The translations under genes were made by a program, and so were the position numbers. Below the pieces are notes generated by a model. That model worked only from the letters and a program-made list of their open reading frames with translations, searched no databases and was not told the DNA's origin. From positions 1 to 14,430 of the forward strand of contig CANQEB010000035.1 of NCBI GenBank assembly GCA_947594085.1: a stretch of DNA of 14,430 bases. Reading direction: 5' to 3'. Below, one piece after another: positions 1 through 6,515 of this stretch (its first letter is position 1; the number at the start of each line of letters is the position of its first letter). Source of the DNA: an uncultured Lachnospiraceae bacterium (GTDB taxonomy: Bacteria > Bacillota > Clostridia > Lachnospirales > Lachnospiraceae).

Positions 1-161
1 GTCATGGGATCGATGAACGGAGTTTTATAACCGCCGATCAGGGAGAAATAGCCGATGTCTTTTAGAACTGTTTTGGCATATGCAGGATCAGCAATCTTCA
101 TCTGCTTATCGTCAGTCAGTTTTTTGATCTGATCATCGTATGTAAGAAATGGTTTTGACAT
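1..161 (-). CDS. Abi_2 family abortive infection protein (AbiD/AbiF-like), N-terminal part
   Basis: This is the first 53 codons of a minus-strand gene that runs off the left edge. The N-terminus (MSKPFLTYDDQIKKL) and the later DIGYFSLIGGYKTPF stretch match the opening signature of the Abi_2 family: a KPFLTY-x2-QI start, then a Y-[FY]-x-L-I-x-GYK motif around residues 39-46. Members of the family (lactococcal AbiD and AbiF and their relatives) protect bacteria against phage by abortive infection; the biochemical activity of this one cannot be told from the fragment. The ATG at 161 has a GGAGGA ribosome site on the minus strand (168-173) six bases upstream. Just upstream lie a promoter and a terminator-like RNA module on the same strand, so the gene is probably read by passing that terminator. 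Catalytic or RNA-binding residues further in are outside the window. Confidence 0.85.
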   Translation of the reverse strand, partial: MSKPFLTYDDQIKKLTDDKQMKIADPAYAKTVLKDIGYFSLIGGYKTPFIDPM

Positions 162-187
162 GGCAGTTCCTCCTTCCCTGGCAAAGT

Positions 188-212
188 AAAAAGGAGGGCC
201 CTCAGGTCCTCC
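188..212 (-). terminator. Intrinsic terminator-like hairpin upstream of the Abi_2 gene
   Basis: Read on the minus strand, positions 212-193 form an 8-bp stem (GGAGGACC with GGGCCCTCC-side pairing, one G-U pair) and a 4-nt loop, followed at once by five T (192-188). It lies only 15 bases before the ribosome site of the Abi_2 gene. It could therefore end a short upstream RNA while letting some transcription through into the gene. Confidence 0.65.
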
Positions 213-253
213 CCCGGTCTCAGTCCTCACGAGTATCTGAAACCTGATCACTG
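188..253 (-). ncRNA. Candidate small structured RNA preceding the Abi_2 gene (abiF-RNA-like)
   Basis: Between a promoter (about 288-260) and a T-tract (192-188), the minus strand can fold into two adjacent hairpins. The first pairs 244-237 with 223-216 (GGTTTCAG with CTGAGACC, one G-U pair) around a 13-nt loop containing CTCGTGAGGA. The second is the terminator hairpin at 212-193. The linker is three bases. The predicted start near 253 gives an RNA of about 65 nt. A structured RNA motif called abiF RNA has been described upstream of Abi_2-family genes. The position, size and terminator-like 3' end here fit that motif, but I matched it from memory of its layout and not by a covariance search. 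Confidence 0.55.
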
Positions 254-259
254 GAATAA

Positions 260-288
260 AGTCTATCACAGCAACTGCTGAAAGTCAA
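260..288 (-). promoter_or_regulatory. Sigma-A-type promoter for the Abi_2 RNA/gene module
   Basis: On the minus strand TTGACT (288-283) and TAGACT (265-260) are separated by exactly 17 bases. The -35 box matches the consensus at five of six positions and the -10 at four of six. The spacer contains a perfect inverted repeat, CAGCA-GT-TGCTG (280-269 on the minus strand), which could be an operator. No other promoter of this quality lies between here and the gene. Confidence 0.6.
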
Positions 289-843: not shown

Positions 844-1479
844 ATGGGAAAAAAGATCATTGCGGTCAATGCGGGACCGAGAACAGGCTGGAACACGGAC
901 ACGCTGATTACGGAGGCTTCGAGAGGAGCGGAAGCAGAAGGGGCGGAGGTAGTAAGATTTGACCTGTTTCGCCTGGAGAAATATACGGGATGTATCTCCT
1001 GCTTCGGCTGCAAAAGGGAGAGATTTAAGGGGCACTGCATCTGCAAAGATGGGCTGACGCCTGTTCTGGACGCGATCAGGGAGGCTGATGGGCTGATCAT
1101 AGGCTCGCCGAATTACCTGGGCGAGTTGACGGCTTCGTTTCGTGCGCTTTATGAGCGACTGATATTCCAGAATCTGACATACAATCTGGAATCGCCCTGC
1201 TGTAACGATCGCCGGATCCCTGTGCTGTTGATTATGACCAGCAATGCTCCCGATACGGCTTATACGGGGCTTCTGCAGAATTATCAACAGACCCTGAGTC
1301 GGTACATAGGCCCGACAGAGCTGCTTGTCAGCGGAAACACGCTTCAGCTGAAGGATTACAGCAAGACAGACTGGCAATGGTCGATATTTGATCCGGAGGC
1401 AAAAATGAAACGCCGCGAGGAAGTTTTCCCGCAGGAGTGCCAAAATGCGTTTGAGCAGGGCAGACTGCTCGCGAAGTAA
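844..1479 (+). CDS. Flavodoxin-like / NADPH-dependent FMN reductase family protein with iron-sulfur flavoprotein-type cysteine cluster
   Basis: The 211-residue product has the flavodoxin-like layout of FMN reductases. It opens with a strand and phosphate-binding region (KKIIAVNAGPRTGWNTDTL, about residues 3-21), and later has LIIGSPNYLGELTASFRALYERL, which in this family contacts the FMN ring and carries the S-P-x-Y signature. Between them lies a cysteine cluster at residues 50, 53, 56, 65 and 67. Iron-sulfur flavoproteins such as the Methanosarcina Isf bind a 4Fe-4S cluster with a similar compact C-x2-C-x2-C-xn-C motif, so a cytoplasmic electron-transfer role is likely. The partner is unknown. 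ATG at 844 is chosen over an upstream TTG at 763 because AGGAGG (831-836) sits seven bases before it and the upstream codons are repeat sequence. The next gene starts 69 bp downstream. Confidence 0.85.
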   Translation: MGKKIIAVNAGPRTGWNTDTLITEASRGAEAEGAEVVRFDLFRLEKYTGCISCFGCKRERFKGHCICKDGLTPVLDAIREADGLIIGSPNYLGELTASFRALYERLIFQNLTYNLESPCCNDRRIPVLLIMTSNAPDTAYTGLLQNYQQTLSRYIGPTELLVSGNTLQLKDYSKTDWQWSIFDPEAKMKRREEVFPQECQNAFEQGRLLAK

Positions 1480-1548: not shown

Positions 1549-2652
1549 ATGGTCTACGATTTTTATGTGGGTAGTTATGCTCCGGCGGAGCATGAGAGCA
1601 TCTACAGATATCAGCTGAACGGAGAGACTGGGTCGCTGGCCAGAAAGGAAGCGATAAAGGGTGTGGACAATCCTTCTTGGCTTCTGCTCCACCCGAACGG
1701 GAAGCTTATGTATTCCGTTGAGGAGTTGAATCCGGACGGGCGTGTTGCCGTTTACAGTCTGGAAAGCGGTGCCCCGAAATATCTGTTTTCCTTTGGGACG
1801 GAGGGCGCAGATCCTTGCCATTTATCATTAAGCCCGGATGGAAGATTTCTGTTTGTGGCAAATTATTCCAGCGGCAGTTTATCGGTTTTCCGCCTGGATC
1901 CGTTCGGCAAGCCTGAGGGCATGACTGATCATAAACAGCATGTGGGACAAGGAAGCAATCCGAAGCGTCAGGAAGGACCGCACGTACATTTCACCAGTAT
2001 GATTGACGGGTTGCTCTATGTATGTGATCTGGGTCTTGACCGTGTTGTGGTTTATTCCCTGGATGAGCGGTCAGGCAGGCTGACAGAGAGCGGGAAGGAT
2101 ATTTGTTTCCCGGGCGGATATGGGCCCAGGCATCTGGCGGTACATGCTGCGCACAAAGGCTTTATGTATGTGATTGGCGAGCTGACGGGCGAGCTCTGTG
2201 TGCTGCAAAACAATGGAGATCGATACGAGTTGATTCAGCTTGTCAGTTCTCTGCCGGAGAGTTATGCGGGAGAAAATGCATCTGATGGAAATGCGAATAT
2301 GAGAAATATGACAGGGGAGGATGCAAGCGGAGAAAATCCTGTCATGGAAAATACCGCAGCGGCGATTAAATTCAGCGAAAATGGCAAGCTGCTGTTCGTC
2401 TCGAACCGGGGAGCAGACTCGATCACCAGTTTTCTTGTACAGGCGGACGGGAGGGTCAAAAAAGCGGACTGCATTTCCAGCGGCGGAAACGGGCCGAGAG
2501 ACTTTGCGATTTTCGGAAAACACATCATAGCCGCGAATCAATATTCCAATAATCTGTCTTTGATCGGGTTTCTGGCTGAAACTGGAAAGATGAAGCTTTT
2601 GACGGCGAATGAGTCGGTGACAAGCCCGGTGATGATTGCCGAAATCATGTAG
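1549..2652 (+). CDS. Lactonase family protein (6-phosphogluconolactonase-type, seven-bladed beta-propeller)
   Basis: The 367-residue product matches the YbhE/Pgl-type lactonase family (PF10282). It has YVGSYAP at the N-terminus, repeated blades such as PSWLLLHPNGKLMYSVEE, PCHLSLSPDGRFLFVANY, GPHVHFT and LLFVSNRGADSITSF, and GNGPRDFAI near the C-terminus. Family members hydrolyse 6-phosphogluconolactone or related sugar lactones in the cytosol, so a role in sugar oxidation is likely; the exact substrate is open. The ATG at 1549 follows GGGAGGG (1536-1542) at a good distance; an upstream in-frame start at 1525 lacks a ribosome site. Residues about 243-268 are an extra Asn/Glu/Met-rich loop not expected in the propeller: a 75-bp in-frame insertion flanked by GAAAAT (2272-2277 and 2347-2352). 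The gene lies just before the kinase/transporter locus, but the kinase has its own promoter. Confidence 0.87.
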   Translation: MVYDFYVGSYAPAEHESIYRYQLNGETGSLARKEAIKGVDNPSWLLLHPNGKLMYSVEELNPDGRVAVYSLESGAPKYLFSFGTEGADPCHLSLSPDGRFLFVANYSSGSLSVFRLDPFGKPEGMTDHKQHVGQGSNPKRQEGPHVHFTSMIDGLLYVCDLGLDRVVVYSLDERSGRLTESGKDICFPGGYGPRHLAVHAAHKGFMYVIGELTGELCVLQNNGDRYELIQLVSSLPESYAGENASDGNANMRNMTGEDASGENPVMENTAAAIKFSENGKLLFVSNRGADSITSFLVQADGRVKKADCISSGGNGPRDFAIFGKHIIAANQYSNNLSLIGFLAETGKMKLLTANESVTSPVMIAEIM

Positions 2653-6381: not shown

Positions 6382-6418
6382 AGCTGTAAATGATCAAACG
6401 TTGCTGAGACGACAGCAA

Positions 6419-6483
6419 CTATGGACAGGGCGTCTCCGGGAAGGACCTGTAGGGGTGTCCACCCGGAGACGCCCTGTCCATAG
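6419..6483 (+). repeat. 22-bp perfect hairpin, second copy of a conserved-loop hairpin family
   Basis: Positions 6419-6440 are an exact reverse complement of 6462-6483, giving a 22-bp stem with a 21-nt loop. The pairing continues outward past one mismatch (GCA at 6415-6417 with TGC at 6485-6487). The inner stem (TCTCCGGG / CCCGGAGA) and loop (AAGGACC...TAGGGGTGTC.A) match the hairpin at 4725-4768, while the outer stem differs but remains fully paired. No T-tract follows directly, so it is a poor classical terminator. It begins 37 bases after the regulator stop codon. A weaker resemblance at about 6488-6514 may be a decayed third copy. Confidence 0.75.
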
Positions 6484-6515
6484 CTGCGTCCGGAAGAGAC
6501 ACAGGAAGATGTCTA

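Follow-up and report, generated by a model that had tools for sequence, protein, structure and literature searches.

Introduction

Anti-phage RNases of the Abi_2/AbiF kind are widespread, and Cas13 has been proposed to derive from them. The HEPN fold is unrelated to that of ToxN, the RNase of a type III toxin–antitoxin system. PDB entry 8vz6 is PbAbiF with the AbiFr ncRNA. AbiF/AbiFr and PbAbiF are covered in a review (PMC12737573). The pair AbiFCd/RCd22 originates from the C. difficile prophage phi027, and its RNA carries the motif RF03085. According to the report on this pair (PMC12373285), AbiFCd is toxic and requires the R and H of its motif, and the RNA antitoxin works both in cis and in trans, with binding. 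An earlier, sequence-only reading of the locus studied here had called the mechanism of such pairs poorly described, a statement that this report makes partly outdated.

RF03085 was the only RNA partner of Abi_2/AbiF found in Rfam searches. A second RNA family with clean covariation, tied to its own Abi_2 group, would imply that replacement or invention of the RNA partner has occurred more than once for a single protein fold. Here, we describe such a candidate, termed R1, as material on how an RNA comes to inhibit, and later to guide, a HEPN RNase.

Layout of the R1 Locus

The window, that is, the whole stretch of DNA analyzed, is the 14,430-nucleotide contig C35 of an uncultured Lachnospiraceae bacterium (CANQEB010000035.1; assembly GCA_947594085.1), whose genome is fragmented (319 contigs, 71% complete). 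The locus is on the minus strand, which the sequence-only reading did not state, at the window's left end, and the Abi_2 gene is truncated at codon 53 because the window is the entire contig. Every element that the sequence-only reading had described was found there, namely a promoter with a 17-bp spacer, two adjacent 8-bp hairpins, a T-tract, a ribosome site, and an Abi_2 N-terminus:

283..288, minus strand: RNA promoter, −35 hexamer TTGACT (promoter scan; TTGAC equivalently placed in 41/46 intact relatives)
260..265, minus strand: −10 hexamer TAGACT, with TG before the −10 and a 17-bp spacer (promoter scan)
186..252, minus strand: R1 RNA, two hairpins, 67 model positions (R1 model, covariation, conserved block)
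216..244, minus strand: hairpin 1, 8 bp, arms GGTTTCAG/CTGAGACC (predicted fold, covariation)
190..215, minus strand: hairpin 2, terminator-like, CC/GG inner pairs (predicted fold, covariation)
188..192, minus strand: T-tract of the intrinsic terminator (sequence)
169..175, minus strand: ribosome-binding site AAGGAGG (sequence)
159..161, minus strand: ATG start codon of the Abi_2 gene (sequence)
3..161, minus strand: Abi_2 (AbiF-like HEPN RNase) gene, first 53 codons (homology; fold and motif of relatives)

Hairpin 2 of the window has 8 bp when G-U pairing is counted, with two inner pairs and one small internal loop. Based on the promoter spacing, the R1 transcript is predicted to start at approximately 253–252. 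The window locus shares a SigA-type promoter, a structured RNA, and a Rho-independent terminator with AbiFCd/RCd22, and R1 loci additionally share the adjacent Abi_2 gene and the HEPN motif (RNxCAH), the C. difficile pair being as described in PMC12373285. Unlike RCd22, R1 consists of one hairpin of a different type plus a terminator hairpin, within about 65 nt. The distance from the transcript start to the ATG is 168 nt in AbiFCd/RCd22 (PMC12373285) versus an inferred ~92 nt in the window, and the proteins share ~27% identity (phiC2 copy versus the protein of relative L006).

Contig C71 closes with 261 bases that are 94% identical to bases 1–263 of C35. The RNA regions differ by 1 base in 76, and the C71 Abi_2 gene is broken, its open frames covering 83 and 179 residues. 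Because the match reaches exactly both contig ends, C71 and C35 may represent one locus in two strain variants, not two copies.

The neighbor of the Abi_2 locus (844–1479, plus strand) is an NADPH-dependent FMN reductase gene (PF03358), and no other defense or mobile genes were recognized by eye in the window. A long, near-perfect inverted repeat at 6409–6492, which yields microRNA matches below threshold, lies between a response-regulator gene and a gene resembling an ABC substrate-binding protein.

Conservation and Structure of R1

The folding energy of the window RNA was not better than that of shuffled sequence (z = +0.72 and −0.60), and is not informative as evidence for the R1 structure. 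A DNA search with the region gave matches in 24/299 Lachnospiraceae genomes, many of them with the RNA block alone; this block of 65–66 nt matches in other genomes where its flanks do not. In the first alignment (27 sequences), 95.9% of cells were paired, as compared with 89.1% in shuffled and 41–62% in slid controls. The second alignment holds 103 matches, drawn from 98 sources; 96.5% of its cells are paired versus 79.2% when shuffled, with both-side changes in 335 cells versus 84.8. Fitting to the structure, which favors pairing, was used for this second alignment but not for the first. The sequence-only reading had proposed looking for compensatory changes in both stems, and these proved strong: 16 of the 17 pairs of the 103-match alignment show both-side changes. 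Helix 1, in hairpin 1, is paired in 98.7% of cells, with both-side changes in 6/7 pairs, and helices 3 and 4, in hairpin 2, are paired in 97.5% and 96.0%. Block conservation and compensatory changes thus show, by comparison, that the R1 structure is real.

The RNA begins with AGTGA, in which the first four positions are kept in 92–98 of the 103 matches and the fifth in 81. Across the family, hairpin 1 has a 7-bp stem, in which one of the middle pairs occurs as five pair types, and a loop part, A-N-A / C-U-Y-G-N-G-A-N-G, with little variation. In hairpin 2, the stem is G-rich, the inner pairs are CC/GG, and the loop is mostly UGNG; a T-tract follows. Several unpaired positions are among the most conserved, and R1 has no variable, spacer-like stretch. 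The window contains one R1 match and no tandem R1 repeats; only in L025 is the gene immediately preceded by two tandem copies.

Distribution of R1 and Its Protein Partner

A covariance model of R1 matched 84/397 Lachnospiraceae genomes at E ≤ 1e-3. The scores show a gap between 36.5 and 26.6 bits, above which lie 89 RNAs in 66 genomes; the window scores 88.9 bits, as a member of the training set. In a class-wide sample, 24/391 genomes gave a match, 16 of them above 36 bits, including 8 outside Lachnospiraceae. The chromosome of Hungatella hathewayi DSM 13479 carries an R1 locus (L249), as does Blautia sp. An81 (L221), whose Abi_2 relative is intact, and no DNA match to the region was obtained in a plasmid collection.

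We classified the 102 R1 RNAs above 36 bits, leaving a 103rd match (19.1 bits) out of the locus and pair-retention counts. Partner scoring combined tblastn with an HMM built on 111 homologues, and a gene was considered intact if it had 270 codons or more, contained an RxxxxH motif, and started within 350 nt. By this definition, an intact Abi_2 gene lies downstream of 46 RNAs, forming the type III-like layout of RNA gene, terminator, and RNase gene. The gene is partial or broken in 17, or 15 once the window (cut by the contig end) and L088 (contig ending 855 nt downstream) are removed; 36 RNAs have no downstream Abi_2, and 3 lie at contig ends. An intact Abi_2 gene directly precedes one of these 3 RNAs and three of the 36; the other 33 of the 36 are orphans, with no Abi_2 detected within up to 1.5 kb on each side (shorter at contig ends). 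By eye, two orphans (L098, L127) and one contig-end locus (L055) have apparent first Abi_2 codons that tblastn did not report. In L032, L135, and L110, a second R1 RNA begins ~40–65 nt past the end of the Abi_2 match, as does the sole R1 RNA in L177/L106.

The 53 residues encoded in the window gave no Pfam match on their own, and the Abi_2 identity of the gene rests on homology to relatives: they are 70% identical to the intact relative L034, and the protein of L006 (same locus) matches PF07751 with 160.5 bits (cut-off 25.6) and PADLOC AbiD with 219.7 bits. Relatives of the window protein have the AbiF fold and an invariant HEPN RxxxxH catalytic motif.

Protein-first searches, which are free of RNA-first selection, placed R1 within 100 nt upstream of 23/23 full-length relatives of at least 45% identity in genome contigs, and at 27/53 of all Abi_2 loci returned from them. 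Below 45%, L245 is the only full-length genome-contig relative with R1, and L244 has an R1 look-alike that the model misses. In viral contigs, R1 was present at 7/7 Abi_2 relatives of at least 49% identity, at 2/3 at 38%, and at 9/24 overall. Across the 397 genomes, R1 lies within 600 nt upstream of 46/150 Abi_2 matches, among the matches listed; of the remaining 104, 80 were fetched and 24 were not, and 76 of those fetched had sufficient length for a tree. In this tree of 121 proteins, the 44 R1-associated proteins group with L177 only, where R1 lies downstream of the Abi_2 gene. Strict monophyly is not proven because the node support is 0.57. Taken together, these comparisons show close pairing of R1 with one group of Abi_2 proteins.

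Relation to RF03085 and Other Leader RNAs

The sequence-only reading had suggested identity with the Rfam abiF RNA, which was not supported. At E ≤ 10, RF03085 matched neither the window nor its 171-nt piece, nor the host genome (150 of 893 first-look candidates scored), nor 20 related loci. The model does match the C. difficile phage phiC2 copy with 37.6 bits (gathering score 37), and therefore the test works. Within the same bacterial family, RF03085 also matches at Abi_2 loci of other groups. At E ≤ 0.01, it occurs at 35 places in 29 of the 397 genomes, 6 of which exceed its cut-off. Among the matches listed, 18 of the 35 places have a downstream Abi_2 and 17 do not, and RF03085 lies upstream of 18/104 non-R1 and 0/46 R1-associated Abi_2 genes. 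Conversely, over 60 non-R1 Abi_2 loci, many of the abiF type, the R1 model exceeded 14 bits only in L177. The assignment of R1 as an RF03085 member was rejected, as none of the R1 loci searched gave a model match.

When 20 Abi_2 loci of other groups were searched with Rfam, RF03085 was the only family matching upstream. We labeled the leaders of the 80 fetched Abi_2 loci without upstream R1 by loose regular expressions, which are not models. An abiF-like motif was found in 27. Other recurrent leaders were ACAGAGTTGCC (6 loci), GCGAATGACTG-like (5), and CCGTRGG (4), with smaller sets for TTGCCAGTTTG (3), AGGTCAGG (2), and GAGATGACTAGC (2); one locus had the CCTTCGGGCC terminator only. None of these motifs was present in 30 loci, among which L152, L153, L154, and L157 appear abiF-like by eye. 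In the upstream regions of L141–L216 (e.g., L158, L162, L182, L193, L214), the leader RNAs look mutually different from one Abi_2 group to another.

As far as Rfam 15 shows, R1 is a new RNA family. The system around it is of a known kind, an AbiF-type RNA–RNase pair. No description of R1 was found among the papers listed in a literature search that reached few subscription papers and did not include the PbAbiF study.

Promoter and Terminator

Scanning positions 1–900 of the window gave 2 promoter-like sites versus 1.1 expected, which is not significant alone. Among the relatives, TTGAC lies 30–50 nt 5′ of R1 in 41/46 intact-gene loci, and 40 of those 41 have it at a distance of 35 or 36 nt; base shuffles give an expectation of 0.95. 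By this comparison, the promoter-to-R1 distance is fixed across intact relatives. TTGAC was also found at promoter distance in 10/16 partial-gene loci and in 20/36 loci without the gene.

A simple scan found no terminator at the window locus; the R1 alignment contains T-rich columns after the second hairpin. The terminator is probably leaky. The fold of the read-through leader had first suggested that the 3′ arm of the terminator masks the Shine-Dalgarno sequence, an idea that was rejected. Cognate arm/leader pairs (−10.48 kcal/mol) were no stronger than swapped ones (−11.18 kcal/mol; shuffled leaders, −9.66 kcal/mol), the cognate pairing being equaled or exceeded in strength by 4936 of 5000 permutations, and therefore there is no locus-specific pairing.

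R1 RNAs without an Intact Gene

The 36 gene-less R1 RNAs retain their pairing: compared with the nearest intact-locus RNA, they carry 174 stem substitutions and 46 double changes but have lost only 22 pairs, versus a mean of 123 and a minimum of 101 in 1000 randomizations. The 16 RNAs beside partial genes, a set that leaves out the window, show 32 substitutions and 3 lost pairs versus a random mean of 23.8. The kept pairs in orphan R1 may partly date from before gene loss. In 15 of the 66 R1 genomes, PF07751 gave no match at E ≤ 1e-3. Orphans are no special mark of R1, because RF03085 RNAs are also often without a listed downstream Abi_2 (17/35).

In L068, L072, L073, and L123, the R1-type RNA (38–59 bits) is followed not by Abi_2 but by a small ORF and then a gene resembling zeta toxins, with no TTGAC visible by eye at the usual place. 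The downstream L068 protein, the only one of these run against Pfam, matched PF06414 with 26.5 bits. These four copies are too small a set, and too closely related, for zeta-type toxins to be interpreted as a second R1 partner. In L021, an HDV-like ribozyme (RF02682, 49.8 bits; 1845–1921, plus strand) lies ~270 nt from an orphan R1 on the opposite strand.

Proposed Mechanism and Alternatives

We consider it likely that the locus is a type III-like toxin–antitoxin or abortive-infection pair of the AbiF kind, in which an RNA outside Rfam holds Abi_2 inactive. One promoter would produce the two-hairpin R1 RNA of ~65 nt; hairpin 2 would stop most transcripts, and occasional read-through would yield the Abi_2 mRNA, its rarity leaving the RNA in excess over the toxin. 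R1 would bind the Abi_2 HEPN ribonuclease and keep it inactive. A drop or disruption in the R1 supply, such as a phage might cause, would release Abi_2 to cleave cellular RNA and stop growth. We infer the inhibition from kinship, close pairing, and asymmetric loss, and likewise infer the transcription, read-through, binding, and trigger of the pair. The earlier suggestion that the RNA guards or inhibits the protein, with the terminator setting its excess, is well supported by comparison and agrees with what has been reported for AbiFCd (PMC12373285); its attribution to the abiF RNA is not supported. According to the same paper, the type III systems ToxIN, CptIN, and TenpIN share the promoter, RNA, terminator, and RNase gene with R1, and RNA excess by leaky termination, proposed here for R1, is a type III feature. 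Type III antitoxins are normally tandem repeats, whereas R1 is single in nearly all loci.

Two alternatives fit much of the same data. R1 could act in cis only, as a promoter with an attenuating terminator that keeps Abi_2 low, with no RNA–protein binding in trans. Hairpin 2 is terminator-like, with T-rich columns, and a terminator alone reduces expression; premature termination has also been proposed for RCd22 (PMC12373285). Attenuation alone, however, does not need the highly conserved 5′ AGTG and loop part of hairpin 1. Moreover, R1 occurs without the gene, 20 of the 36 gene-less loci have TTGAC at promoter distance, and the related RCd22 acts in trans (PMC12373285), so that we regard a purely cis role as unlikely. 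Alternatively, in the manner of a primitive crRNA, R1 might serve Abi_2 as a cofactor that activates it or a guide that aims it, and not as an inhibitor. A guide of this kind is hard to reconcile with the lack of a variable spacer-like stretch and with the unpaired positions among the most conserved ones, and mere activation does not predict that R1 pairs are kept beside broken toxins; we consider this role quite improbable.

The two remaining explanations concern the nature of the RNA itself. A divergent RF03085 member would be expected at the same place and strand, beside the same kind of gene, and with a hairpin carrying an asymmetric internal loop, all of which apply to R1. Nevertheless, RF03085 gave no match to the R1 loci searched even at E ≤ 10, yet matched phiC2 and other Abi_2 groups; it lies upstream of 0/46 R1-associated versus 18/104 other Abi_2 genes among the matches listed, and R1 in turn exceeded 14 bits only in L177 over 60 non-R1 loci. 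Membership is therefore very unlikely. Chance hairpins with an ordinary terminator, and no RNA function, would agree with folding energies equal to those of shuffled sequence, but are scarcely credible given the covariation, the block conserved beyond its flanks, and the fixed promoter distance.

R1 in Phages

Exact-pattern scans, which are not a census, identified R1 in three viral records (L306, L307, L308; 66–85 bits) with no PF07751 match in records that may be fragments; another pattern match, L304, is not R1 by the model. Like the pseudo-ToxI of PhiTE, these would be phage-borne RNA antitoxins without a toxin. Pseudo-ToxI was demonstrated by experiment, according to PMC3475682, whereas phage R1 is known from sequence alone. 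We tentatively suggest, as a possible but doubtful extension, that Abi_2/AbiF proteins have several unrelated, group-specific RNA antitoxins, with R1 as a new one, and that stand-alone R1 RNAs, whether phage-borne or remaining in genomes, serve as decoy antitoxins, a form of RNA anti-defense, against resident Abi_2. The phage copies would allow a ready test of such RNA-based counter-defense.

L306 and L307 are near relatives, and both resemble bacterial genome G237 (L046). R1 of L046 lies near a tail tape-measure gene (PHROGs), as it does in L306 and L307 by matching ORF starts. Two small ORFs beside R1 in L306 and L307 resemble, by eye, a toxin of the RelE/ParE type and an antitoxin of the Phd/YefM type. 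In L308, a 112.8 kb record, R1 follows a stop codon and a promoter is not evident by eye; among four neighboring ORFs, a phosphoesterase alone matched PHROGs.
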